DNA of 25,842 nt, taken from a virus. Below are positions 2,549 through 25,842 of the stretch, in pieces (the stretch's first letter is position 1; the number at the start of each line of letters is the position of its first letter). The notes under the pieces were generated by a model, which searched no databases, had not been told where the DNA came from, and worked only from the letters and a program-made list of their open reading frames with translations. The position numbers were made by a program, and so were the translations under genes. The stretch spans positions 1-25,842 of IMG/VR virus record IMGVR_UViG_3300007735_000536; one strand, 5' to 3'.

Positions 2549-3453
2549 TATGCTACTCCTTTTAAGGCTTGAACTTCTGCTTTAGTTGCGTCTAGTTCTG
2601 CTTTTACTTCGTTTAACTCAGCTTTGAGTTCTTGGATTGCGGCTGTTAGTGTTGCGACTAAGAATGAAGTATCAATGCCCTGTGGATTAATTGAGCCATC
2701 TTCGTTTACTGCGTCTTTTTCGCCAACAACAGCGTCAGGCACAACAGCTTGAAGTTCGTGAGCAATAAAGCCTTGCCCAGCATCGCCAGTTGCTTTCCAT
2801 GTATAAGTGCATGGTTTTAATTGAGCGACTTTAGCTAAAGCACCTGTCATTGGTGCAATGTTTTCTTTTAAACGGTAATCAGATGATGTGTTGTATGCAA
2901 CATTTGAACCGCTTTTTGATATGCTTCCAACAACCGTATTTCCTGAATCAAAAAAACCAACCATTCCTTGACCTGATGAAAGTCCTTTAACACCTAAAGG
3001 GTATGGACTACTTGAATCAGCAGTAAAAACACCGTAAGCATTTGCACCAGTAGATGATGTTGTTCCAACTTGTAACTGTCCTGTATTACCAGCACCGCTT
3101 CGACTTGAAAAAACTAAATTACCACTAGAATCAAAACGACCATATTCTGCTGTATAACCTTCAAAAGCAAGATAACCATTAGCGTTTAAAGCTGAGTTAT
3201 ATGCACTTAATTTAACACCGCCAGCAGTATTGCCATTTTGAATTTCAAAAATACCATTACTTCCTGTATTTCTAATTGTGCCACCAGAAACATTTAATTT
3301 TGTTTGAGGACTTGTAGTGCCAATACCAACATTCTGACTTGTATCAATCGTTACAGCAGTCGTTCCGTTATTGGTTGCTAGTTGTAATGAGCCTGAGTTA
3401 TCCGCAGAGGTAACTAAGCCACTTGTAGTTGTTGCGTTCAGAATACTTGGCAT
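2548..3453 (-). CDS. Tail fibre/spike with C-terminal Peptidase S74 self-cleaving chaperone
   Basis: 301 aa. Residues 1-60 resemble a common fibre leader (TAVTIDTSQNVGIGTTSP). Residues 60-185 are Gly/Ser-rich beta structure. From about 188 the intramolecular chaperone begins with SSDYRLKENI. Ser191 and Lys196 have the +5 spacing of the catalytic pair in endosialidase-type S74 domains, so cleavage before Ser191 would release a 111-residue chaperone from a 190-residue fibre. Further S74 features are the GFIAHELQAVVPDAV stretch (228-242), the FLVATLTAAIQEL helix and a C-terminal coiled coil (270-298). It lies between the two paralogous tip/accessory cassettes, with TAATG overlaps at both ends. 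Domain call firm; the target of the fibre unknown. Confidence 0.85.
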   Translation of the reverse strand: MPSILNATTTSGLVTSADNSGSLQLATNNGTTAVTIDTSQNVGIGTTSPQTKLNVSGGTIRNTGSNGIFEIQNGNTAGGVKLSAYNSALNANGYLAFEGYTAEYGRFDSSGNLVFSSRSGAGNTGQLQVGTTSSTGANAYGVFTADSSSPYPLGVKGLSSGQGMVGFFDSGNTVVGSISKSGSNVAYNTSSDYRLKENIAPMTGALAKVAQLKPCTYTWKATGDAGQGFIAHELQAVVPDAVVGEKDAVNEDGSINPQGIDTSFLVATLTAAIQELKAELNEVKAELDATKAEVQALKGVA

Positions 3454-3719
3454 TATGCTACTCCCTTCGGATACTTAGCTTTGACTGCTAAACAGTCAGC
3501 AATGTATTTATCAATCTGTGCTTGGTCACCTTTTACGATTCCATCCAAATATTCTGTAACGCTTGGATATTCTGCTGCTCGTTTAGCAATATAAGCATGA
3601 GCATCAACATAAGCCTGTACTGCGGCTTTATCGTATGCGACTTCGTTACCATCGGCATCGTAGGCTGTGTCATTATTAATAGTAACGACTTGTGGGTAGA
3701 GTTTATAAATAGCGTACAT
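3453..3719 (-). CDS. Tail-fibre accessory / assembly chaperone-like protein, copy 1
   Basis: 88-aa paralogue of the gene at 1737-1997, with YPQVV near the start, YDADGNEV, AAVQAYVD, RAAEYPS, and an ending in VKAKYPK. The last residues, KGVA, are the same as the end of the S74 fibre encoded immediately downstream. No membrane segment or known catalytic motif is present. The ATG at 3719 overlaps the stop of the 198-aa tip-like gene (TAATG), so it is paired with that protein exactly as copy 2 is paired with its own. A fibre-folding or attachment accessory role is inferred from this repeated pairing. Confidence 0.6.
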   Translation of the reverse strand: MYAIYKLYPQVVTINNDTAYDADGNEVAYDKAAVQAYVDAHAYIAKRAAEYPSVTEYLDGIVKGDQAQIDKYIADCLAVKAKYPKGVA

Positions 3720-4315
3720 TATGCAGCAATCTCCATAACAATAATTGATGAAGCACCTGTGGCAACAGTATTTGTTCCACCACCACCAATAGAATAGTTA
3801 ATTTGAACTGGATTTCCTGTACTTCCACCTACTGTGCATTGAACAGAATAAGTTGTTGAAGAAGTAGTTGCTGGCGAATCTAAATAAATTAAACTTTGTG
3901 ATACAAGTAAATTAGTTAAATTTTGTTGCCATCCACCACCAACTACTGACCTAATTGCACTACCAGATGCGTTTCCAATATATGATGATGTATTACCGCC
4001 AGCTAATTTAAACATTGCTGAATTACCGTTCATTCCTGAACTAGAAACTTGTGCAATAACTAATATTTTACTAGTTGCAGAAGTTGGTGTAATGCTTACA
4101 GTAAGTCCTGTAATATCAACAAAAGAACTACTCGTTGTAGAAAAAGTATCGGTTTTAGCCGTTTGAACCACCTGAATCACATTACCAGCTTTAGGCGATG
4201 TGGTTGTAAGAATTGTTCCGCTAGTGGTCGGCAAAGTTAAAACAGTAGACCCAGCAACGGCTGGTTCTTGTAGTGTGATACTTCCGCTAGTTGAGCCTAC
4301 TAAAACAATACTCAT
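3719..4315 (-). CDS. Fibre-tip-like structural protein, copy 1
   Basis: 198 aa from ATG at 4315, which overlaps the stop of the long tail fibre (ATGA). A GTG at 4327 is in frame but would overlap more, and an AGGTG motif lies at a usable distance from the ATG. Residues 1-45 form a leader (SIVLVGSTSGSITLQEP, then a LPTTSGTIL stretch). The core, VIQVVQTAKTDTFST, VDITGLTVSITP and TSKILVIA, parallels copy 2 at 1994-2548. The middle diverges and is very rich in Gly, Asn and Ser, and the end is IIVMEIAA. Divergence in the middle with conserved ends is what one expects if the middle contacts different receptors (inference). Confidence 0.6.
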   Translation of the reverse strand: MSIVLVGSTSGSITLQEPAVAGSTVLTLPTTSGTILTTTSPKAGNVIQVVQTAKTDTFSTTSSSFVDITGLTVSITPTSATSKILVIAQVSSSGMNGNSAMFKLAGGNTSSYIGNASGSAIRSVVGGGWQQNLTNLLVSQSLIYLDSPATTSSTTYSVQCTVGGSTGNPVQINYSIGGGGTNTVATGASSIIVMEIAA

Positions 4316-5934
4316 AATATTACCCACCTTTGTCCTGATGCAACTGTTACTGAGAATCCGCTAGAGATTGTGATTGGCCCAACTGACAGACAATTGTTGC
4401 CTGATGTCGTTGTGATATTTTCAGCAATCGTGGTGCTGTTATAAGCAATTGCTTTAGTAGCAGCTGATCCAAAGTATTGACCGCCAGCTACGGCTGACGT
4501 TGTAACCGATGTTACTAATCCCTTGCCGTTAACTGTAACTACAGGAATAGAACTAGATGAGCCAAAGGTTCCAGTAGTTGAGTTGACTGTGGCCAATGTC
4601 AGAGCAGACGATCCAGCAGAGCTAGTCGCATCACCAGTAAACGCTGGCAGTCTGGCTGCACCGAGTGTGCCACTAGAGATATTGCTTGCGTTAGTGGTGT
4701 CAGTTGTTGCCGATGCAACCAAGCCAAGATTAGTACGAGCTGTAGATACCGAGGTTAGATCAGATAGGTTGTTTGCTTTAGCCAAGTAATCTGTGCCTGA
4801 TACATAAGCAGCTACCCAAGCAGATCCTGTGTAAACTTTCATTGCTCCAGATACAGAGTTGAAGTACAGAGAGCCAGCAACTAAAGCGTTGCCGTCATTA
4901 TCTAATGTTGGATCACTTGTTTTGCTACCGAGATATCTGTCATCAAAGTTATCGTATGCGGTTAGCGTTGCATCACGAGCTGCCTCGGCTGCTGTCTGTG
5001 CGTTGCCAGCTGCTGTTGCGCTATTGGCTGCATTGGTTGCATTGGTTGATGCATTTTGAATAGCAACGATATTGGTAGCGTTTGTATTAACCGCTGCAAT
5101 ATTTGTAGCTACAGTTGATACGTTTGTATTATTTGTAGCAACAGTCGATACGGCAGAGCTGATACCAGCAACTGTGGTTACGTTAGCCGAGATGCCAGCA
5201 ACTGTCGTTACGTTACCAGAAACACCGGCAACTGTAGAAATGTTTGCATTGTTACCAGCGACTGTATTAATGTTGCTTGAGTTGCCAGCCACCGATGTGA
5301 CGTTAGCACTAATTCCGGCAACAGTTGTGACGTTGCTTGATATACCAGCTACTGTGTTGATGTTTGTATTATTACCAGCAACAGTATTAACCGATGCAAT
5401 ATTGGTAGCCACAGTATTGATGTTGGCTGACTGAGCTGCAACTGTGGTTACAGCGCCAATGCTTGGGCCAGCCTCTGGGTTACCAGTTGTTGCGTTAAAT
5501 GCTAGGACTGTACCAGCACGAGATGCTTTAGCTGGCAGAGTCATGTTGATGTCAGTTGGATCTACTACTGGAGCCTTGAGTCCACGCTCTGCGGTCTCAG
5601 CGACTTGCTGTGCGTAGATGGTCTGGCTGTCTAGATCGGTATTCAATGTGCTGGCAAAGAGGTCTCCACCAGTTGTGTAGTCGCTAGTACGTTGGATTGC
5701 TCTAGCGCCCACAATCGTAATGTTGCCTGTGCCAGCGGTTACTAGGGTAACTGAGCCTGTGCCGTTAGCGTTAATCGTTACGCTGTAGTCTGTGGTCAGA
5801 GTGAGCAACGTGCTACCCCGATATACAGCGATATCGGTATTAGCAAGAATTTCAAACGTAAAGGCATATGGCCCGACACCAGTATTGGTGTAGACCACAC
5901 GTCTTGCTACGTTAGATATCGCATAATCAGCCAT
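4312..5934 (-). CDS. T7-type tail fibre with decapeptide-repeat shaft
   Basis: 540 aa. Residues 1-120 resemble the T7 gp17 N-terminal virion-attachment domain: PYAFTFEILANTDIAVY, TTDYSV, then an AIQRTSDYTTGG segment and a YAQQVAETAERGL helix. Residues about 161-290 are thirteen near-perfect ten-residue repeats of the form NVxTVAGxxx. An Ala-rich helical stretch follows (291-325, AANSATAAGNAQTAAEAARD). Residues 330-540 are a Ser/Thr/Gly-rich distal part with typical fibre motifs (NNLSDLTSVSTARTNLGL and ARLPAFTGD). No chaperone domain is present at its C-terminus. It follows the ejection proteins after 37 bases and has an AGGGAAA SD. It probably forms the adhesin trimer that anchors the downstream tip proteins. 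Confidence 0.85.
   Translation of the reverse strand: MADYAISNVARRVVYTNTGVGPYAFTFEILANTDIAVYRGSTLLTLTTDYSVTINANGTGSVTLVTAGTGNITIVGARAIQRTSDYTTGGDLFASTLNTDLDSQTIYAQQVAETAERGLKAPVVDPTDINMTLPAKASRAGTVLAFNATTGNPEAGPSIGAVTTVAAQSANINTVATNIASVNTVAGNNTNINTVAGISSNVTTVAGISANVTSVAGNSSNINTVAGNNANISTVAGVSGNVTTVAGISANVTTVAGISSAVSTVATNNTNVSTVATNIAAVNTNATNIVAIQNASTNATNAANSATAAGNAQTAAEAARDATLTAYDNFDDRYLGSKTSDPTLDNDGNALVAGSLYFNSVSGAMKVYTGSAWVAAYVSGTDYLAKANNLSDLTSVSTARTNLGLVASATTDTTNASNISSGTLGAARLPAFTGDATSSAGSSALTLATVNSTTGTFGSSSSIPVVTVNGKGLVTSVTTSAVAGGQYFGSAATKAIAYNSTTIAENITTTSGNNCLSVGPITISSGFSVTVASGQRWVIL
5065..5454 (-). repeat. In-frame tandem repeat, about 13 units of 30 bp, inside tail fibre
   Basis: Encodes residues 161-290 of the fibre, with register constant at exactly ten residues and consensus NVxTVAG followed by NNx, ISx or similar. 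The unit sequences differ at synonymous and third-variable positions, so this is an old coding repeat and not a recent slippage array. Repeat number may vary between relatives and change shaft length. Confidence 0.9.
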
Positions 5935-5971: not shown

Positions 5972-8857
5972 CTATCGCTTGTATTTGCCGTAATCTCGCT
6001 TGGCTTGCTCTACATCTCGGAGTGCCTCGGCTAAGTCTGAATCCTCTGCAATCAATATCTTTTTAGCATTGCTATATCTATCCGATATCTCTTTGCTAAT
6101 AATTGATTGCGCCTTGCCTAAGTCCACAGATGCCAACTCTTGCAAGTTCTGGCCAAGGCTCTCAACTGCCGTTGCCATTGTGCCATCTTGAGTTGCTATC
6201 TCAATCCAGCGGTTGTACTGACTAGCCGATAACTTAATACCCTCAATGCTTTGGTTTGGTATATACATTGGAATGCCATACTCAACCAATACAGCATGGG
6301 CTGGACTGAACTTACCATCCGATAGCTTTAGTGGATTAAACATCTCATAAAGGTTACCTTTTCCAACCTTTTGTACATCACCAGTAATTGGGTCAAGCTG
6401 ACGTGGCAAGCTATCTGAAGTTAATGGATTGCGAGACTTGTAATAATTGACCGCCTCATAGAACCCACGCACAGCTGGCTCAATTAAGTCTTGCTTAAAG
6501 CCCATCTCACCCGGCATTGTGTTGGATCTTGTTGGATCAACAAGTCGCTCAACGGCTGCTACAAAAGAACTATGGGTTCCCAATGGAGATCCGCCAATAG
6601 CAAACTCTGATACTTGCTTAGATGCTTTCTTGATTAAGTCATAGAAAATAGATGGCGCATCTTTAGAGCCTGATGTAAACACCTTGCTGATTTCGCTAAA
6701 GCCTTGGAGCATTGGCTGCTCTGATAGATATTGGTATATACCAATGGTAGCACCCATAGCCATCTTCTCTAGGTCTGTGCCACCATGAGTCATCTGTGCA
6801 TACTCACCAGCCGTAGCACCGATTCCAAGCAATGTAGCAATTGGCTCTAGGCCAGCATAAGAAATGTATACCTTGTCTGGGCCATACTTAACTGAAGTAA
6901 TCTTTTCAAATTCAGCAAGCAAGCTAGGATCTACGTCAGCCTTATTAAACATGATGGAATATTGTTGCCATCCTGTACCCTCTAAAGCCTTCTTGTCATC
7001 CATCCGCATTGGGCCATAGCCTGTCAGCTTGCCCTCAAATACGCCAGCGCTTACTGAATAAATCATTGCACCACCAAGAGTTACACGAGCCATTGCTTGG
7101 TCTCTGCGGATACCGCCAGCATTAAAGTCACCCCAGAATCGTGGGCTTGCAAAGTTCAAGCCTGGTGTTCTAGCCAAAGCCTCAAGAGCAATATTGGTTG
7201 GGGTCTTAACGAATGGTACGAATATCTTGATTAATGGGTTTTGAGCTGCTGATTGTAAGCCTTGTAAAGATTGCTCTAACTCTCGTGTAAATGTAACTGT
7301 ACGAGATACTGCTTTGGCAGCCTCATCAATATCTGGTGTTGGATTGGCAAGCAAACTAGCAGTTAAATCAGATGCCTGTTTGGCTGCCTCATCTGGAGTT
7401 AGGCCAGACTGTATTAACTTCTTATACATTCTGTCACCTTCTCTGGCTGTTATAGCATTTAATTCCATGCGATAGCCAAGACCCTTAAAAAACTCATCCT
7501 CTGCCATAAGCGCTCTGCCCGGCAAGGTAACGAACTTACCCCAATAACGTAATGCATTGCTTATTGCTTTGCCTGTTTCTGAATCGCCAAAGTCAATGTC
7601 AAACGCATCTCGCCCAACTCGGCCAGTTTCAATTTTTGTAAATGGATCTGTTGGAGTATTTTTAAGAAATGCGGTTCCAGATATTTCGCCACCTTCTCTA
7701 AGGCCATACAAAAACCCAACAGCCTGTGCATACAATTCATTTGTTGAGATAGCTTCTTCGCCACCCTTAAACAATAGGTTTCTGCCTTTACCGATAAAGG
7801 ATGCAACTGCTCGTTCTGGCATCTGTAATGCGCCAAAGAATAAGTTACCAGCAATGTTCTTTGCATGGGTTACTGGGCTAGACAATAGACCATTAATCCA
7901 AGTAGAGAACCACACATCTTTTAAAGTTCCTGAGATTGATTTATCAGCAAGATTTGCCATAGCAGATTTGCTTGATAGGGCTGTGTACTTGTTAGCTAAA
8001 TCAAATGCAGACTCAATACCGCCAGCCTCTGTCATTAGACCGGCAAGCATCTCACCTCTGTTAACTGATGACTGCCTTGCTTGAGAGAAGATACCAAGGG
8101 ATCTAGCAATATCAACTTGCCTACCCTTAACAGCCTTGGCAACAACACCCTCATAAGCAATGGCTTGCAAGAACTCAGAAGACAGCTCGTCTGTTAACGT
8201 GCCATTGGCTTTTGCCTCTTTAACCTTTAAGCCTAAGTCATATGTTCTTTTGCTTGCATCAGACTGAACTAATAGCATCTTGTATGCTTTGCCGTAGTCA
8301 GCCTCTGTGGCTACATTTGGGTCTATCAATCTAGCAACGAATGCCTCATCGTATCCTTCAGCGGATGCCTTGGCAGCAAAATCTGTATAGCTAATTCTTT
8401 CAAACTTATCTGCGCCAACTGACCTAGCAACAGCCTCAATGTGCTGTTTAAAAGTGTCTGGCCCATCAATCAAGTCTAGGTTAAATACAGTCTCCGGCAC
8501 ACCAGTTGCAACCTCTGCTGATGTGGGTGAGGGTTTACCCGTAGTCGGCATGGCTGGGGTAGCCTTTTCAATCGCCTCTGCTTGTGCTGGCTTGGCCTCT
8601 TTAATAACGCTGTAAGGCCCTATTTTCCCTGTCTCTGTACCTTCTGGTAGGATCGGTCTTTCTGTGCGCTTGGGAGCCTTTTTAACTGCCCTCCTAATCA
8701 TTGATTCAAACCCAGCTACTTGGGTTGGCTCAAACTCAGGATTCTGATCTGTTAGCGCAACTGGGTCTACTGGCTCGGATTCTGGTGGCAGCGCAGCAAC
8801 ATCTTGCTCTACTGTAGAGAGTTCATCTAAGCGCTCGTTTAATGGCTTTATAGACAT
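5972..8857 (-). CDS. Large internal virion / ejection-type protein
   Basis: 961 aa. Residues 1-120 are Pro/Glu/Ala-rich and probably disordered. Residues 120-310 are helical. Residues 312-360 contain an aromatic, partly hydrophobic segment (VWFSTWINGLLSSPVTHAKN, then NLFFGALQMPERAV) that I recognise from very large phage 'polyvalent' or ejection proteins. The rest is mostly amphipathic helix with several hydrophobic patches (for example near PLIKIFVPFVKTPTNIAL). Size, composition and position between the gp14-like/internal genes and the tail fibre match T7 gp15/gp16, which leave the capsid to build a trans-envelope channel. No lysozyme or transglycosylase motif was seen. The start ATG overlaps the preceding stop (TAATG). 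Role inferred from context and partial motif recognition. Confidence 0.65.
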   Translation of the reverse strand: MSIKPLNERLDELSTVEQDVAALPPESEPVDPVALTDQNPEFEPTQVAGFESMIRRAVKKAPKRTERPILPEGTETGKIGPYSVIKEAKPAQAEAIEKATPAMPTTGKPSPTSAEVATGVPETVFNLDLIDGPDTFKQHIEAVARSVGADKFERISYTDFAAKASAEGYDEAFVARLIDPNVATEADYGKAYKMLLVQSDASKRTYDLGLKVKEAKANGTLTDELSSEFLQAIAYEGVVAKAVKGRQVDIARSLGIFSQARQSSVNRGEMLAGLMTEAGGIESAFDLANKYTALSSKSAMANLADKSISGTLKDVWFSTWINGLLSSPVTHAKNIAGNLFFGALQMPERAVASFIGKGRNLLFKGGEEAISTNELYAQAVGFLYGLREGGEISGTAFLKNTPTDPFTKIETGRVGRDAFDIDFGDSETGKAISNALRYWGKFVTLPGRALMAEDEFFKGLGYRMELNAITAREGDRMYKKLIQSGLTPDEAAKQASDLTASLLANPTPDIDEAAKAVSRTVTFTRELEQSLQGLQSAAQNPLIKIFVPFVKTPTNIALEALARTPGLNFASPRFWGDFNAGGIRRDQAMARVTLGGAMIYSVSAGVFEGKLTGYGPMRMDDKKALEGTGWQQYSIMFNKADVDPSLLAEFEKITSVKYGPDKVYISYAGLEPIATLLGIGATAGEYAQMTHGGTDLEKMAMGATIGIYQYLSEQPMLQGFSEISKVFTSGSKDAPSIFYDLIKKASKQVSEFAIGGSPLGTHSSFVAAVERLVDPTRSNTMPGEMGFKQDLIEPAVRGFYEAVNYYKSRNPLTSDSLPRQLDPITGDVQKVGKGNLYEMFNPLKLSDGKFSPAHAVLVEYGIPMYIPNQSIEGIKLSASQYNRWIEIATQDGTMATAVESLGQNLQELASVDLGKAQSIISKEISDRYSNAKKILIAEDSDLAEALRDVEQAKRDYGKYKR

Positions 8858-11067
8858 TATTGATTATCCTCTTGTTGCACAGCAGCACCACCAGCGCCAA
8901 TGGCAAATAATGGTTGACCTTTAGTTAATACTGATTCTTTCATTTTAGGGGTAACGTCAATATATTGAACAGATGGATTATCGCCAGCTAGAGCCTTAAT
9001 TGCATCAACCTTAGTTGCATATGAGTTGTAATTTATTCCATCACCAGAATCAACAAGGTATTTTCCATTTTCAAATATGATTTGATTTTCAATGTTTACA
9101 TTGCTTGTTGGTATGTTGGTCATGCCAGTTTTAGCATCCCACTTTTTAGCGTACTTATCTAGGAATTTAGGTAGGATTTGGTCATAAAAACCTTTCATGC
9201 CCTCACCTCCAACTTGTAGATCAACATTTTCAAGTTTTCTAATTAAAGAATTTTTGTTTCCACCAGTTCCTTTTTGCGCTTTTTGTGCAATTAACTTTTC
9301 AGCAACATCTTTGCCAACCAATTCAATAAGCTCATCTTCGTTATTAATTAAACGATTAACAACTTCATTGCTATCTTTTCTGTATCCATTAAAAATAGAA
9401 CCTTCAATATTATTTTTGTTTGGACTAACAAGCTGAACACTTTCTAAACTTTTACTCAAATCATATCTCTCAGCCTGAGTTTTTCCAGTAGTAAATGCTA
9501 CTCGGTCATAGCCACCTTCTGCGGCTAACTGAATAGCACGTTTCATAGATAGCTCATGCCATGTAGTTTTAAATGGTGCGTCTGGTACGCCAGAGCCAGT
9601 AGCAAGCTGGTTAGCTATTGGCGCATATTCTCTTTGAAGATTATTCAAGCGATTAGCAGTCATATTCCATTTATCAAGAATGTCGTCAGGAGCATCCTTG
9701 CCTTGATTTGTAAATGGTTTAGCTAATTCCTCTAGCCGCACTTTTTCTGCTTCAAGTGTTTTGCGTTCGGCATCAAGAGCATCCAATTTTTTCTGGTTTG
9801 CGGCTCGCTGCTCTAAAGTGTTATACCCCTTCTTGCGCCCAGCTTGATGCCAATCAGATTGCACCTCTTCTACAAATAGCACCTTCTTGCCATCAGCATC
9901 TACTCGGTCATTGACTCGGAGATGGGCTAGGATATTAGGTTGGTCAAAGTGTTGAGATTTAAACTCATCAGCTTTCTTTCTGCTTGCAAAAGATATATCA
10001 GCCGCAGACAGCTTTGCGTCAGGCTTGGCATTTAAGATAACTCTAGCCTCATCCTCGCTAACCATTTTGGTTGGCAAAGTCAACAATATCTCTCGATAGT
10101 TCTCACCGCCTGGTAGTGTGTATTTAGAGAACTTGGTAAGTGATCTGTCAATTAAGTAATCAGCGTCATCTTCTGGGCCAGTAAATACAACCTTGCCTTG
10201 CTTGTCTATAACATCATAAAAATCTTGATCTTCTGGGCTATTTACTGAAAACTTCTTTTTTAAACCGCCATCTGCAAGACTTACTTCTTTAACCTCAACT
10301 CGGTTCTTATCTAAGTACTCTTGCACTTCAGCTTTAGTAACAGACTTCTTGGATTTCAAGAAATCATCTAACCCAGTCCATTTAATCTCTTCTGGCTTTA
10401 CTCCGGGTGTCTTCTCAATCTGTTTTAAGAACTGCTCACCAGTTCCTTTGGGTTGTTGGATGGAATTAACTGCCTTTTTAGCGGCTGAGTAAAAGCCAAG
10501 CTCGCTAACACCCTCGCCAACCATCTGCGTACTCATGCCAACTGGCCTACCTTTGGTAGCCTGTACAGCCTTGGTAGCGCCTTTAACTACCTTTGGCACA
10601 TCTAGCAGTCCTGGTGCTGGTAAGAACTCTCCAACACCCTGTGCTATGTCAACTGTCTTTTGGCGCTCTGCTGCATTTGGTGCGCCAGCTGGTACAACTT
10701 GTGGCAAGGTGTTGCTTTGCAAAACCTCTTCAGAGGTTGGGAACATACGCTTTCCCATTACAGCCTCTGCGCCTTCTTGATTAATCAAGTCAACGATAGA
10801 ACGGATATCTCCAGGCAATCCAATCGCAGCGCCTGTAGCACCACGCATAGCACCAGCCAAAGTATCTAATAAAGCAATTAATGGCTTATCTAAACCGCCA
10901 GCCTTTGCTGACTGTTGAGGAGTAACACCAGCTCTACCAAGACGAACCCCAGTTTGTGGAACGTCAGACGTTACTGGCCCAGCCGCAAGCATGGTATCTT
11001 CTTCTGGCTTTTCTGTTGGCAAGACAAAGTCTTTAGCCAAATCATCCATGAATCGTTGGTCAATCAT
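8857..11067 (-). CDS. Polyvalent-type internal virion protein of unknown activity
   Basis: 736 aa. Residues 60-105 include a Gly/Ala-rich hydrophobic helix (GAMRGATGAAIGLPGDIRS). Residues 205-270 are a small domain (GTGEQFLKQIEKTPG, then KWTGLDDFL). The main domain spans about 320-550, with the conserved segments NYREILLTLP, HFDQPNILAHLRVNDR, VEEVQSDWHQAGRKKGY (399-415), a charged coiled-coil insertion (417-485), and WHELSMKRAIQLAAEGGYD, followed by TTGKTQAERYDLSK. A C-terminal part has GMKGFYDQILPKFL and ends at KMKESVLTKGQPLF. These blocks recur in large phage/prophage polyvalent proteins, whose biochemical activity I do not know. The gene sits in the ejection-protein block and overlaps its upstream neighbour by ATGA. 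It may be a co-injected effector rather than a channel part. Confidence 0.6.
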   Translation of the reverse strand: MIDQRFMDDLAKDFVLPTEKPEEDTMLAAGPVTSDVPQTGVRLGRAGVTPQQSAKAGGLDKPLIALLDTLAGAMRGATGAAIGLPGDIRSIVDLINQEGAEAVMGKRMFPTSEEVLQSNTLPQVVPAGAPNAAERQKTVDIAQGVGEFLPAPGLLDVPKVVKGATKAVQATKGRPVGMSTQMVGEGVSELGFYSAAKKAVNSIQQPKGTGEQFLKQIEKTPGVKPEEIKWTGLDDFLKSKKSVTKAEVQEYLDKNRVEVKEVSLADGGLKKKFSVNSPEDQDFYDVIDKQGKVVFTGPEDDADYLIDRSLTKFSKYTLPGGENYREILLTLPTKMVSEDEARVILNAKPDAKLSAADISFASRKKADEFKSQHFDQPNILAHLRVNDRVDADGKKVLFVEEVQSDWHQAGRKKGYNTLEQRAANQKKLDALDAERKTLEAEKVRLEELAKPFTNQGKDAPDDILDKWNMTANRLNNLQREYAPIANQLATGSGVPDAPFKTTWHELSMKRAIQLAAEGGYDRVAFTTGKTQAERYDLSKSLESVQLVSPNKNNIEGSIFNGYRKDSNEVVNRLINNEDELIELVGKDVAEKLIAQKAQKGTGGNKNSLIRKLENVDLQVGGEGMKGFYDQILPKFLDKYAKKWDAKTGMTNIPTSNVNIENQIIFENGKYLVDSGDGINYNSYATKVDAIKALAGDNPSVQYIDVTPKMKESVLTKGQPLFAIGAGGAAVQQEDNQ

Positions 11068-22179: not shown

Positions 22180-22674
22180 TTAATACCTCGTCATTAGTAA
22201 GTAATCCACCTTATCAGGGCCATACATCTTTAAAACTGTTTCGGTCTCAAACAATAATGCTTTTGCATAACGTATTGCCCGAATATCGTCAGTTCTAACA
22301 GTTATTTGCAATCTATGCAAGTTGAGATATCGGGTTGCGATATCTACAAAGGATCTGCCACATCTAAGCATGGATGCTGGGTGTTCTCTCGCTTGATTGT
22401 CAAAGATGCTCCACATCTCGCCAACTCCACCCCAGAATAGGACAACTCCAAATATCGCTATCGGTTTGTTTCTGTAGAAAGCAGTTACCGCAGCACCGAG
22501 CATAGCTTGGCTAGATATCATGGATCTGAGGTCATATCCCCTAGCTACCGCTAACAACTCTGGCTGTGTGGTATCGAGCTGGTCAAAGTGGTCGATAACG
22601 AATGGCAGATAGAAAACCCCTCTCTTGGGATGCATCTGCTCATTCAATACCTCATAAGGTATAGTTATTTTCAT
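22180..22674 (-). CDS. GNAT-fold protein resembling T7 gp13-type acetyltransferase-like proteins
   Basis: 164 aa. The middle and end show a GNAT-like order: AFYRNKPIAIFGVVLFWGGV (about 65-84, beta strands), MWSIFDN, a helix RCGRSFVDIATRYLNLHRLQ, TVRTDDIRAIRYAKALLFE and a final strand YLLMTRY. A usable acetyl-CoA loop (R/QxxGxG/A) is not obvious, so catalytic activity is doubtful. T7 gp13 and relatives (DUF2833) have this fold and are needed for virion assembly. It overlaps the terminase stop by ATGA rather than sitting with the internal proteins as in T7. Confidence 0.55.
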   Translation of the reverse strand: MKITIPYEVLNEQMHPKRGVFYLPFVIDHFDQLDTTQPELLAVARGYDLRSMISSQAMLGAAVTAFYRNKPIAIFGVVLFWGGVGEMWSIFDNQAREHPASMLRCGRSFVDIATRYLNLHRLQITVRTDDIRAIRYAKALLFETETVLKMYGPDKVDYLLMTRY

Positions 22675-24230
22675 CTGGCAAAGATATCGAAATCGCTATT
22701 GGCTACAGTTTGGGCTACAAAAGTCTTTGATGCTCCATCCCCCGGACGAGTCATGCGCTTGTATTCACCACCACCTAACAAGAGATATCCAAAGGCATCA
22801 CCAACGTGGGAATGTTCGTTTTTGTTTGGGGTATCCCTAAACCGCTCCTGACCAGATCCTACCGATACCCGCTTGAAGTGGTACCCACCAGCCAAGGATT
22901 TGCGTAGTAGCTTGCATTTGCTGTCAACCATGAGTCCCGGCTTGCCGTTTATTAAGCGTTGCATGGGTGCGGCAGCTGATTCTCTACGAACCTTAAAATC
23001 ATTCGAGGGTGTCGGCTGTGCCTTGAGACCTAAAGTTCTGAGGAAGTCAAAAGCTGTGACCTCATAGATGGCATCCCTCGCCATACCAGCGGGATCGCCC
23101 CATACCAACACTTGCATACCTGGGTACTTTGCGTTGATTTCAGCAATGAGTTGGTGGCCAAAGCGCTCCAAGCCCATATCAAAGGTAACTATCTCCTCAA
23201 TGACTTGCCACCTACCGCTAGGCAACCTCTGCCCAATCACCGCAGCGGGTGTTAAACCAAAGTCAAGACCGATCTGAATCGGCACAGAGTTGTCTAAAAT
23301 AGTCTCTCCAGACATGATGTTATCGTCATATTCTGGCCAAACCGACTTGCCCTCTTGGACGTAGGTATATTTGCCCTCAGCGTAGCACCTGATCCAATCA
23401 ATGTTCTTACCTAGTAGCATCTGCTGGTAGTAGCCTGGTGGTAGGTTGGCTACGTTCTCAGCCTTGTTATTAAGTTGCCACCACTTGCCAGCCGAGAAGA
23501 TGCAGTCATTAGCCTCTGGGTTTTCTGGGAGGTCATCTTTTGCAACCTCGATAATCCCGCCTGGCTGTTTAAAGAACTTCCAAGCGTATGGGCCTGTCAT
23601 CTTTTCTTTCTCTGCCATCCTAAACCACCAATGGTCATCATCCATGGGGTTGGTATCCATCCAAATCCCATGCCAGCTGGCACCACCATCTCGCTTAGTA
23701 GGGTATCTACCTACTCGGTGTGTAAGGCCATCGATTACAGCCTTGGGTAACTCTCGTGCCTCATTAACCCATGCCCCTGTTAGCTCTAAGGATAATAGCT
23801 TTCGCACGTCCTTTGGCTGGTCAAGAGCTAGGAAGATTACCTCGCAATCAATACCAGCTGCATCATCTTTAGCCGGTAGTCGGATGTGGTGGGTAATCGG
23901 TGGGGTATAGAGCATTGGCCCAAAGGTATTCTCTGGGAAAAGGTCTTGCCAAGTCTTTATGGTCGTTGTCTTGAGTTCGGGGTAGCTATTGCGTACAATG
24001 ACAAAACGGGTATATCGGACACCATCGATAGGGGAGGGCTTTTGCTGAATGGCTCTGATAAACACCTCGGCAGCGCAAGCATATGACTTGCCCGATCCTA
24101 CTGGCCCCATCATCCCACGCACGAATGCATTACTCGTTAAGAACTTATAAACCTCTGGGGATTTGGAGAAATCAAGGCTAATACCAGTTGATGGTATTTG
24201 TTTGCTTGACATTTCTTTTGTTTTAGCCAT
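22671..24230 (-). CDS. terL: Terminase large subunit
   Basis: 519-aa packaging ATPase/nuclease. Walker A is at 42-49 (GPVGSGKS), and the Walker B/catalytic Glu region at 152-159 (GAWVNEAR). A coupling-type segment, WMDTNPMDDDHWW, is at 190-202. The nuclease domain shows acidic positions in IQIGLDFGLTPAA (Asp323), VLVWGDPAGMARD (Asp379), and the late HSHVGDAFGYLL. Length and architecture are complete. ATG at 24230 is the first gene of the minus-strand late operon. No recognisable small terminase lies next to it in the window, which is unusual. Confidence 0.95.
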   Translation of the reverse strand: MAKTKEMSSKQIPSTGISLDFSKSPEVYKFLTSNAFVRGMMGPVGSGKSYACAAEVFIRAIQQKPSPIDGVRYTRFVIVRNSYPELKTTTIKTWQDLFPENTFGPMLYTPPITHHIRLPAKDDAAGIDCEVIFLALDQPKDVRKLLSLELTGAWVNEARELPKAVIDGLTHRVGRYPTKRDGGASWHGIWMDTNPMDDDHWWFRMAEKEKMTGPYAWKFFKQPGGIIEVAKDDLPENPEANDCIFSAGKWWQLNNKAENVANLPPGYYQQMLLGKNIDWIRCYAEGKYTYVQEGKSVWPEYDDNIMSGETILDNSVPIQIGLDFGLTPAAVIGQRLPSGRWQVIEEIVTFDMGLERFGHQLIAEINAKYPGMQVLVWGDPAGMARDAIYEVTAFDFLRTLGLKAQPTPSNDFKVRRESAAAPMQRLINGKPGLMVDSKCKLLRKSLAGGYHFKRVSVGSGQERFRDTPNKNEHSHVGDAFGYLLLGGGEYKRMTRPGDGASKTFVAQTVANSDFDIFAR

Positions 24231-24286
24231 TGATTTTTAACGCTTTTCAGTTAATATTAGCTAACTTTAACATTATAAGGTATGTC
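24231..24286. promoter_or_regulatory. Divergent promoter region between terminase and phosphoesterase genes
   Basis: A 56-bp AT-rich gap between divergent genes. For the minus strand, a perfect TATAAT lies at 24277-24272; its -35 would fall in the start of the phosphoesterase gene and is poor. For the plus strand, TTGATT (24230-24235), 16 bases and TAATAT (24252-24257) make a weak sigma-70-like promoter, with an AAGG SD before ATG at 24287. An inverted repeat AGTTA-8 nt-TAACT (24249-24266) spans the middle and could be a regulator site. Sites were found by eye. Confidence 0.45.
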
Positions 24287-25246
24287 ATGGTTAAAAAAGT
24301 GTGTACCGATGAAGAGTTTATTTCCGTTTGGAAGAGACTGCAATCCCCAGAAAAGGTTGCCCAAGTTATTGGTCTTAGCGCCCGCAATGTAATGAAAAGG
24401 CGCAGAACGATAGAGAACAAATATGACATTGTCTTGGATGCTCTATCTCCCTCTGGACAGCCTAAGATTTACATTCCAGACGAGCAGATGCAAGCTAACG
24501 TCACCATCGATAATGGCACAATCCTAGTTGGCTCAGATTGCCACTACAACCCAGAATACGTTACAACAGCTCACCGAGGCTTTGTCGAATTTGTAAAGTA
24601 TCTGAAACCAAAGATTGTCATTCTCAATGGGGATATAGCAGACTTCGCTAGTATTTCACAGCATCACCGCATTGGCTGGCAGAAAGGCCCCACAGTCAAA
24701 GAGGAGTTAGATGAGATCCAAGAACGATTAGGGGATATTGAAAGGGTAAGACCGGCTGGGTGCAAGTTGATGATTTCGATCGGGAACCACGATTTGAGAT
24801 TCTCAGGCAAACTTAGTAACGTACTCCCAATGTACGAGGGCATCAAGGGTTTTGATATTGCTGACCACACCCCGCATTGGAAGTGGTACTGGTCTATCAT
24901 GGTCAACCAGACTTGCATGATTAAACATCGTTGGCATAACGGCATCCATGCGGTTTATAACAATACGATGAAATCAGGCACCAGCTTTGTCTCTGGGCAT
25001 CTGCATTCTCTCAAGGTAACCCCTTGGACAGACTACACCGGCACCCGATATGGGGTAGATACTGGAACGATGGCCTGTATTAAGGACAACCAGTTTGCGT
25101 ACACAGAAAATAATCCTGTCAACTGGAGGGCTGGATTTGCAGTCTTGACCTTTATCAACGGCAAACTCATGCCACCAGAGCTGGCAGAGGTTATCAATGA
25201 GGATGAGGGTCTAATCTACTTCCGAGGCAAGCTCATCAAGGTATGA
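24287..25246 (+). CDS. Helix-turn-helix plus calcineurin-like metallophosphoesterase
   Basis: 319 aa from ATG at 24287 (AAGG SD; the upstream in-frame TTG would overlap the terminase start). Residues 8-45 form a helix-turn-helix (SPEKVAQVIGLSARNVMKRR). Residues 78-265 are a calcineurin-like phosphoesterase with all metal motifs: D84-x-H86, GD at 115-116 (LNGDIADF), GNHD at 166-169, a His in MIKHRWHNG (214) and GHLH at 237-240. This superfamily cleaves phosphoester bonds in nucleic acids, nucleotides or proteins; the substrate here is unknown. The HTH suggests DNA as target. It is divergent from terminase and overlaps the SprT-like gene by ATGA. It could be a DNA nuclease/repair factor or a packaging accessory. 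Confidence 0.88.
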   Translation: MVKKVCTDEEFISVWKRLQSPEKVAQVIGLSARNVMKRRRTIENKYDIVLDALSPSGQPKIYIPDEQMQANVTIDNGTILVGSDCHYNPEYVTTAHRGFVEFVKYLKPKIVILNGDIADFASISQHHRIGWQKGPTVKEELDEIQERLGDIERVRPAGCKLMISIGNHDLRFSGKLSNVLPMYEGIKGFDIADHTPHWKWYWSIMVNQTCMIKHRWHNGIHAVYNNTMKSGTSFVSGHLHSLKVTPWTDYTGTRYGVDTGTMACIKDNQFAYTENNPVNWRAGFAVLTFINGKLMPPELAEVINEDEGLIYFRGKLIKV

Positions 25247-25599
25247 TCCAGCTGACATCCACGATTCTCAAGAATATGTACACCATGCTTGTGGTGTGTA
25301 AGCCTTTTGATAAGTGGGATATGCCTCTCCCAGAGCAGATCAAGTTCATCGTTGACCACGATCCCGATACGATGGGAACCTATCTTTATGATGATGGGGG
25401 CAAGCATGAACACGTTATTACCATCTCAGCAGCTCGCTGTGGGTTCTTAGATACAGTTATTCGGACAATGGCGCATGAAATGATCCACGCTAGTCGGTGG
25501 AACACCTCAACCGCAGCATGGCAAAAGCATGATAAAACCTTTCGGCATCGAGCCAAACTGGTAGCGGATGAACTGGGCTTTGATCCGCTAGAGCTTTAA
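25243..25599 (+). CDS. SprT-like zinc metallopeptidase
   Basis: 118 aa. The zinc site is AHEMIHASR at 77-85 (HExxH: His78, Glu79, His82), followed by HDKTFRHRA at 96-104, which supplies the third His as in SprT/Spartan-type proteases. The short N-terminal part has a WDMPLPEQIKF stretch and a strand-rich segment (HVITISAARC). At 118 aa it is the minimal protease domain without the C-terminal zinc ribbon of cellular SprT. ATG at 25243 overlaps the phosphoesterase stop (ATGA), so the two are co-translated. Cellular relatives remove proteins crosslinked to DNA; the phage substrate is unknown. Confidence 0.85.
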   Translation: MIQLTSTILKNMYTMLVVCKPFDKWDMPLPEQIKFIVDHDPDTMGTYLYDDGGKHEHVITISAARCGFLDTVIRTMAHEMIHASRWNTSTAAWQKHDKTFRHRAKLVADELGFDPLEL

Positions 25600-25653: not shown

Positions 25654-25842
25654 TTACTTTGTGGCCAGAATATAAAGCCCTACATTACTAAACGCATACC
25701 CGCTATATACCACCGCCATAGGCACGTTACCCTTTAGTCCTTGCTCTACAGCTATGTAGCCATAGATCAGACCTGTAACGATAATCAGCCAGGCGCTCAC
25801 TTGTTGGCTTTTCTCAACGCAATATGCTTTTGGAGGATGTGC
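25654..25842 (-). CDS. Small membrane protein, 5' end cut by window edge
   Basis: The reverse strand is open from the window edge to TAA at 25654-25656, giving 62 residues. It has one hydrophobic segment (AWLIIVTGLIYGYIAV), a short polar loop (EQGLKGNVP) and a second hydrophobic segment (MAVVYSGYAFSNVGLYIL). This is a two-span hairpin, possibly of holin or superinfection-type size. GTG at 25800 is a possible internal start, but the frame continues beyond the edge, so the true start is unknown. It is convergent with the SprT-like gene. No family recognised. Confidence 0.55.
   Translation of the reverse strand, partial: AHPPKAYCVEKSQQVSAWLIIVTGLIYGYIAVEQGLKGNVPMAVVYSGYAFSNVGLYILATK

Follow-up and report, generated by a model that had tools for sequence, protein, structure and literature searches.

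A conserved metallophosphoesterase–SprT gene pair in phages and the exchange of its phosphoesterase for a DEDD exonuclease

Introduction

Proteases of the SprT type clear proteins from DNA in eukaryotes, and the Spartan-type removal of proteins from DNA has been studied mainly in these organisms. SPRTN and Wss1 are built around a zincin HExxH...H core. According to the available part of one account, SPRTN adds to this core a zinc-binding subdomain and a basic DNA-binding region as well as PCNA, ubiquitin and p97 motifs, and MRN is also listed there as acting in crosslink repair (PMC9240642). On mobile elements, a Spartan-like protease domain is found in ArdC of plasmid R388, which, in the sections of the paper at hand, carries its own ssDNA-binding domain, uses a Glu as third ligand and does not need its protease activity for its known effect (PMC7213743). 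Among phages, the excerpts at hand place the SprT gp24 of Acinetobacter phage Loki inside a replication module with clamp and helicase genes close by (PMC5313236) and describe SprT-like proteins as widespread in mycobacteriophages (PMC12363180); no coupling of the Loki, mycobacteriophage or jumbo-phage SprTs to a metallophosphoesterase (MPE) or an exonuclease is described in the accessible parts of the respective papers (PMC12363180, PMC7824862, PMC11373665, PMC5313236). With regard to nucleases, Mre11/SbcD and PolD DP1 share the MPE fold and its metal ligands, and the DnaQ-like phage exonucleases of the phrog_403 type have an unrelated fold with DEDD motifs and a zinc ribbon.

Here, we analysed the virus record IMGVR_UViG_3300007735_000536, a linear stretch of 25,842 bases from a podovirus-like phage that is called the window throughout, and focused on an MPE gene that overlaps a gene for a minimal SprT-like protease. 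The protease shares the zincin core of SPRTN and Wss1 and, unlike these enzymes, is encoded together with a nuclease-like partner; compared with SPRTN, it is devoid of the zinc-binding subdomain and the basic DNA-binding region and not long enough to hold the PCNA, ubiquitin and p97 motifs (SPRTN layout from the available part of PMC9240642). As a 118-aa single domain it also lacks an ArdC-type N-terminal ssDNA-binding domain. The MPE corresponds in fold and metal ligands to Mre11/SbcD and PolD DP1, and differs from Mre11/SbcD by an HTH-like N-terminal region, by the absence of an SbcC/Rad50 ATPase above the cut-off in 10 records and by a negligible sequence match. In other phages, its slot before SprT is occupied by a phrog_403/DnaQ-like exonuclease. 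No description of the MPE-SprT pair was found in the literature searched, a search with subscription papers and preprints outside its scope, in keeping with an earlier sequence-only reading that knew of no report of the pair as a unit.

Results

Genomic context of the two genes

From the left end, the window encodes lysis, tail, internal virion, head and connector proteins and the large terminase, all on the minus strand, and Methylophilales phage MEP301 is its closest annotated (cultured) relative, with 77% identity in the terminase and 83% in the capsid. The sequence-only reading had placed two genes coupled by ATGA at 24287-25599 and called them the only complete genes of the plus strand. 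Both ORFs and their shared ATGA are present in the sequence, and this description is justified because the remaining plus-strand ORFs overlap convincing minus-strand genes. The features of the region are as follows.

22671-24230, minus strand: large terminase, divergent from the MPE-SprT pair
24231-24286, no strand assigned: intergenic region separating the divergent terminase and MPE genes, with almost no variation across 10 aligned loci
24249-24266, within the intergenic region: AGTTA-N8-TAACT palindrome
24273-24282, within the intergenic region: TTATAAGGTA
24287-25246, plus strand: MPE, 319 aa, ATG at 24287 to TGA at 25246 (PF00149, phrog_221, AlphaFold2 model, dN/dS)
24308-24424, plus strand: predicted helix-turn-helix-like region, MPE residues 8-46, with three model helices (8-18, 21-28, 32-46)
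24536-25006, plus strand: putative metal-site residues D84, H86, D116, N167, H168, H214, H238 and H240 of the MPE (conservation)
25243-25246, plus strand: ATGA overlap coupling MPE and SprT (sequence; 4-nt overlap in related loci)
25243-25599, plus strand: minimal SprT-like zinc metalloprotease, 118 aa, ATG at 25243 to TAA at 25599 (PF10263, model, SPRTN match)
25474-25488, plus strand: HEMIH catalytic motif, SprT residues 78-82, with the third ligand H96 at 25528-25530

When related loci with both genes were compared with the window MPE and SprT, the exact 4-nt overlap was observed in 77 of 79 (counted from loci L001-L081, with L030 and L034 left out), the exceptions being a 556-nt gap in L055 and a 10-nt overlap in L065. 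Both proteins are under strong purifying selection: dN/dS ranges over 0.03-0.07 for the MPE, where 9 of 10 pairs were usable, and over 0.007-0.12 for SprT, where 6 of 10 were usable and the remainder saturated.

Several observations concern the surroundings of the pair and the remainder of the window. Directly after SprT and convergent with it, a small membrane-like protein is encoded on the minus strand (25654-25842, open at the window edge), whose family was counted 70 times around 160 SprT loci; its best Pfam match has an E value of only 0.11, and PHROGs gave none. In the tail-fibre region, also on the minus strand, a two-gene cassette is present twice (1737-2548 and 3453-4327), with identities of 42% (E 3e-18) and of 49% (E 1e-21) between the duplicated proteins, which flank a tail-fibre protein whose C-terminus resembles, by eye, an S74-type chaperone. 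Furthermore, a 736-aa virion-region protein (8857-11067, minus strand) aligns with one part of phrog_7348, a very long PHROG that bears the name endolysin (E 4.7e-20).

The protease and the phosphoesterase

The SprT-like protein matches PF10263 above the cut-off (E 9.3e-7, 29.1 bits against 25.6) and Spartan in a profile comparison with an E value of 0.013. Its structural model (pLDDT 91.7) is most similar to human SPRTN (6mdx, Z 11.3, rmsd 2.6, 104 residues aligned), which was ranked top by the second aligner and was absent from the first 50 Foldseek matches, followed by selecase and related minigluzincins and then by Wss1 (5xbn, Z 7.9). Together with the HExxH...H motif, these matches agree with the Spartan/SprT-type identity that had been read from the sequence. 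The residues H78, E79, H82 and H96 are invariant in 327 of 327 proteins, some of which were found by HExxH-containing patterns, while the sets found via MPE or exonuclease were not; a degradation of HExxH in close homologues, which the earlier reading had named as evidence against itself, was thus not observed. The protein ends at residue 118, directly after the protease core. Its last five residues read DPLEL in 243 of the 327 SprTs, with both MPE and exonuclease partners, and this tail could serve as a docking site.

The window MPE stays just below the Pfam cut-off for PF00149 (E 8.5e-4, 20.2 bits against 21.5) and matches the metallo-phosphoesterase family phrog_221 with an E value of 1.7e-30; its AlphaFold2 model (pLDDT 82.5) shows an MPE fold. 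The eight metal-site positions, which we assign to the motifs of the MPE superfamily, are invariant in all 192 SprT-linked MPE1 sequences, and MPE folds fill the list of structural matches, placing the protein among the calcineurin-like metallophosphoesterases. The matches are tied at Z 13-14 and comprise LpxH (14.3), YfcE (13.9), PolD DP1 (13.8, 210 residues), Vps29 and Mre11 (13.2). LpxH and YfcE are not known to be nucleases, and the modelled fold alone does not separate a nuclease from another phosphodiesterase. The closest sequence-profile match in the PDB was SbcD with an E value of only 0.19, no match was obtained when the PDB was searched by sequence with the MPE and SprT singly, and an NCBIfam search returned no matches. 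A weak match was found to phrog_1745 (DNA transfer protein, E 3e-5), which we take to be of the T5 A1 type. The SbcC-type ATPase PF13476 was found above the cut-off in none of 10 related records, with one weak match below it, and in 14 of 14 control genomes, by which an SbcCD-like complex was rejected; a PPP-type protein phosphatase similar to lambda NinI was set aside as well, since the motifs of that family do not suit the MPE.

The N-terminal part of the MPE had been read as a DNA-binding-type domain. The model contains a three-helix region at this position, in agreement with that reading, but none of the HTH profiles in Pfam matched the window MPE, so the assignment is kept as HTH-like. 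Weak HTH-profile matches were obtained for the MPEs that accompany SprT in L085 and L277; the HTH-like region is kept in MPEs without SprT, and the MPE in L100 begins directly at the catalytic domain. The protein at 4291-5529 of the annotated record L085 (MW202713) bears the deposited name archeal DNA polymerase II and clusters with an HTH-MPE; its start is overlapped by a SprT gene that is missing from the annotation. A relative of that HTH-MPE, L099, matches the exonuclease family phrog_284.

Linkage of the two genes

Viral loci were collected with several queries, and neighbours were assigned by HMM. An adjoining same-strand MPE was found in 79 of the 80 loci detected with the window SprT, the remaining one being cut by a contig end, as well as in 6/6 and 4/4 loci detected with the L081 and L085 proteases, respectively. 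With a distant SprT profile, the MPE adjoined in 67 of 79 loci, four were cut off on one side and eight had none by HMM despite sufficient room; in this set, 68 MPE matches lay beside SprT and a single one elsewhere. Conversely, SprT adjoined in 75 of the 80 loci found with the window MPE, and the other five had no room for it. These counts are not independent, as many contigs are closely related, and must not be summed, since the sets share contigs (e.g., L004/L181 and L011/L192). Three MPE subfamilies pair with SprT, each in both orders, MPE-SprT and SprT-MPE, and no protein fusion was detected among the loci examined. The two genes are a conserved unit. In the clade of the window they adjoin each other almost without exception, so that a rare neighbourhood in other phages, which would have contradicted the sequence-only reading, was not observed there.

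Most of the eight loci with room but no MPE by HMM agree with a DNA-enzyme partner. In L277, a 670-aa HTH-MPE abuts SprT (PF00149 E 0.0045, below the cut-off; phrog_7339, DNA repair exonuclease, E 1.1e-38), and in L261 a likely MPE was recognised by eye, with no Pfam or PHROG match. A family-A DNA polymerase overlaps SprT in L265 (PF00476 E 8e-12), a weak RuvC-like match lies next to it in L279, where a family-A polymerase follows at a greater distance, L257 has genes for a primase-polymerase and an SNF2 helicase near it, and a DEDD exonuclease lies beside it in L307. L305 has SprT beside a GTA-type holin, and L297 showed no recognised DNA enzyme partner beside SprT.

Both genes also occur apart. 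Among MPE relatives of ~43% identity, SprT was nearby in 0 of 76 loci with room, and none was found in 14 whole records of such relatives, the latter being a weak result from a search without a positive. In annotated phages, MPE relatives without SprT adjoin holin, peptidase or lysin genes. MEP301 has a shorter MPE beside its lysis genes and gave no SprT match; its phosphoesterase has no known function in the part of the genome description at hand (PMC8024684). A search of GTDB contigs with the SprT profile yielded 20 loci, of which four were paired (L331, L333, L334 and L335), two were cut off and 14, mostly alphaproteobacterial, were unpaired. From the MPEs without SprT and the bacterial SprTs without MPE it follows that neither gene needs the other. 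A related stand-alone SprT with neither MPE nor exonuclease adjoining is found in L336-L350, mostly from alphaproteobacteria.

In the clade of the window, the pair has terminase or VRR-NUC-like genes on one side and recombination genes on the other. A role in lysis was rejected on these grounds, though some single members adjoin lysis genes; SprTs by lysis genes are those of L305 and, with genes between, of L084. A reading as a defence system was likewise dismissed, as a search of PADLOC-DB with five proteins matched 0 families at E 0.01.

Exchange of the phosphoesterase for an exonuclease

The main new point is that the MPE slot is exchangeable for an unrelated DEDD (DnaQ-like) 3'-5' exonuclease. 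The exonuclease of L307 matches PF13482 (E 1.4e-14), a zinc ribbon weakly and phrog_403, the DNA polymerase exonuclease subunit, with an E value of 1.6e-88. When loci were collected with this protein, SprT abutted it in 74 of 80 at a gap of -4 to +13, mostly -4; in one of the others SprT was 486 nt away, three had no SprT and two had no room. The catalytic DEDD motifs DxE, NxxxxD and YxxxD and the zinc-ribbon cysteines were intact in all 82 exonucleases. VRR-NUC (below the cut-off) and a RecA-dependent nuclease flank the L307 locus. Phage records matching the phrog_403-type exonuclease number 1230, as opposed to three for SprT of the window kind, so most of these exonucleases must be without SprT.

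The exchange is also evident from the proteases themselves. Two SprTs that are 95.7% identical (DNA 87-89%) were found, one behind an MPE and the other behind an exonuclease, with unrelated upstream genes. In a tree of 76 thinned SprTs, the partner label changed between MPE and exonuclease at least 11 times; this tree has few columns and weak forks, its starred branches force four changes for the exonuclease group, and its label for no partner takes in L261 (likely MPE) and L265 (DNA polymerase). The exonuclease was absent from 8/8 MPE-type and the MPE from 12/12 exonuclease-type records among 20 long ones, which had been picked by the partner carried, so that only the mutual exclusion counts as a result. 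Furthermore, other SprT-linked MPEs match PHROGs named exonuclease. As its slot is exchanged for a DEDD exonuclease, a nuclease role for the MPE is likely.

The upstream region

The terminase-MPE intergenic region is near-identical in 10 aligned loci while the MPE itself varies. A related GTTA..TAACTT element is present upstream of 96/174 MPE and 33/71 exonuclease loci (8/23 and 8/20 after thinning) and had no matches elsewhere in 3.23 Mb on both strands; the element was defined from the same upstream regions in which it was counted, so its absence elsewhere is the informative part. Its occurrence upstream of both kinds of operon indicates what seems to be a common regulatory region with a different gene behind it. 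A simple scan for sigma-70 promoters gave no plus-strand match upstream of the MPE, and its counts were not above those of shuffled sequences.

Discussion

We propose, giving this reading an even chance, that the two genes form a protease-nuclease module with which the phage processes its own DNA where proteins are bound to it. SprT would cleave proteins stuck on the phage DNA or bound tightly to it, the co-translated partner, the MPE here and the DEDD exonuclease elsewhere, would trim or resect the DNA at the same block, and the cleared block would let replication, recombination or packaging proceed. The proposal is based on the clearing of DNA-bound proteins by SprT types in eukaryotes, on a partner that, across the exchanges, is an enzyme processing DNA ends or strands or is likely to be one, and on neighbouring genes for recombination nucleases and packaging. 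We infer three things: nuclease activity of the MPE, a DNA site common to both proteins, and protein-blocked phage DNA as the substrate. The nucleoprotein-removal system suggested by the sequence-only reading gains from the pairing in both orders and from the MPE/exonuclease exchange; it stays conditional, the MPE fold fits a non-nuclease too, and covalent DNA-protein crosslinks are only a putative substrate beside tightly bound proteins, host proteins or defence proteins. Counted against the module are the ~43% identical MPE relatives without SprT, the holin next to SprT in L305, L297 without a DNA enzyme and MEP301 without SprT, as well as the fold ties with LpxH and YfcE, the SbcD match at an E value of only 0.19, the missing SbcC ATPase and a SprT without the DNA-binding regions of SPRTN.

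Other readings of the pair were weighed against the same evidence. The MPE might be a phosphodiesterase of nucleotide signals or small molecules, with an anti-signalling or lysis-related role and a separate function of SprT in the same operon. LpxH as top fold match, the holin, peptidase or lysin neighbours of relatives without SprT in annotated phages and the weak phrog_1745 match would fit, as would the T5 A1 orthologs predicted, in the available part of a jumbo-phage study, to act on cyclic nucleotides (PMC7824862); the repeated occupation of the slot by a DEDD exonuclease and the exonuclease-named PHROGs matched by other SprT-linked MPEs make this reading improbable. Host take-over, with SprT degrading host proteins (e.g., of the nucleoid or transcription) and the nuclease degrading host DNA to feed replication, we consider unlikely to a similar degree. 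The same comparative study proposes, in the sections at hand, that patchy SprT-like peptidases of jumbo phages target host proteins (PMC7824862), and a nuclease partner would suit chromosome breakdown, but within the present clade SprT is not patchy and is tied to one partner slot, and the SprT gp75 of mycobacteriophage Adephagia is listed, in the excerpt available, as not toxic when expressed in the host (PMC11373665). If the pair instead served to shield incoming phage DNA against restriction or a different defence protein that sits on DNA, its precedent would be ArdC, whose Spartan-like metalloprotease domain belongs to a mobile-element protein that works against restriction by HsdRMS. In the available sections, the protease activity of ArdC is dispensable (PMC7213743), whereas all catalytic residues are invariant here; in addition, the genes observed nearby belong to recombination and replication and neither protein has a match in PADLOC, which covers defence rather than counter-defence, and we regard counter-defence as quite unlikely.

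Two further readings concern the relation of the proteins to each other. Proteases of the ImmA/IrrE type cut neighbouring HTH repressors, and SprT could similarly cut its partner as a switch, e.g., at a point that separates the HTH-like region from the MPE domain; confidence in the model is lowest in the linker at residues 57-66. Although IrrE is noted as a structural relative of such proteases in the part of the ArdC paper at hand (PMC7213743), such proteolytic control appears very unlikely given an exonuclease partner with a zinc ribbon and no HTH match, the MPE of L100 that begins at its catalytic domain and the retention of the HTH-like region in MPEs without SprT. Under hitch-hiking, two small genes that are each useful but have no functional relation would be passed on jointly because one promoter serves both, which would accommodate the occurrence of each gene without the other. 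This is hard to reconcile with SprT having been paired anew several times, in either order and with a number of DNA-processing partners that are distant or unrelated, and with 68 adjoining MPE matches against one distant, and we judge it highly improbable.

A more specific form of the proposed protease-nuclease module appears possible, though doubtful: a two-gene system dedicated to the repair of protein-blocked DNA, in which a minimal Spartan protease works with a nuclease arm that can be swapped, the whole being kept under a common regulatory element and exchanged as a cassette. If this is true, the cassette would guard phage DNA against protein adducts while it replicates or once it is packaged, and we speculate that these may include formaldehyde crosslinks in methylotrophic hosts, such as the host of the sister phage MEP301. 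A minimal phage protease with its nuclease would show to what size such a system can shrink and provide a simple in vitro model of the coupling, and a likely function would be assigned to part of phrog_221, a common but unexplained family of phage phosphoesterases. The exchange of MPE and DEDD exonuclease in one slot makes this function directly testable, as both partners are expected to do the same job. The presence of the two-gene unit in many uncultured freshwater phages hints at a means by which viruses free DNA that is blocked by proteins.
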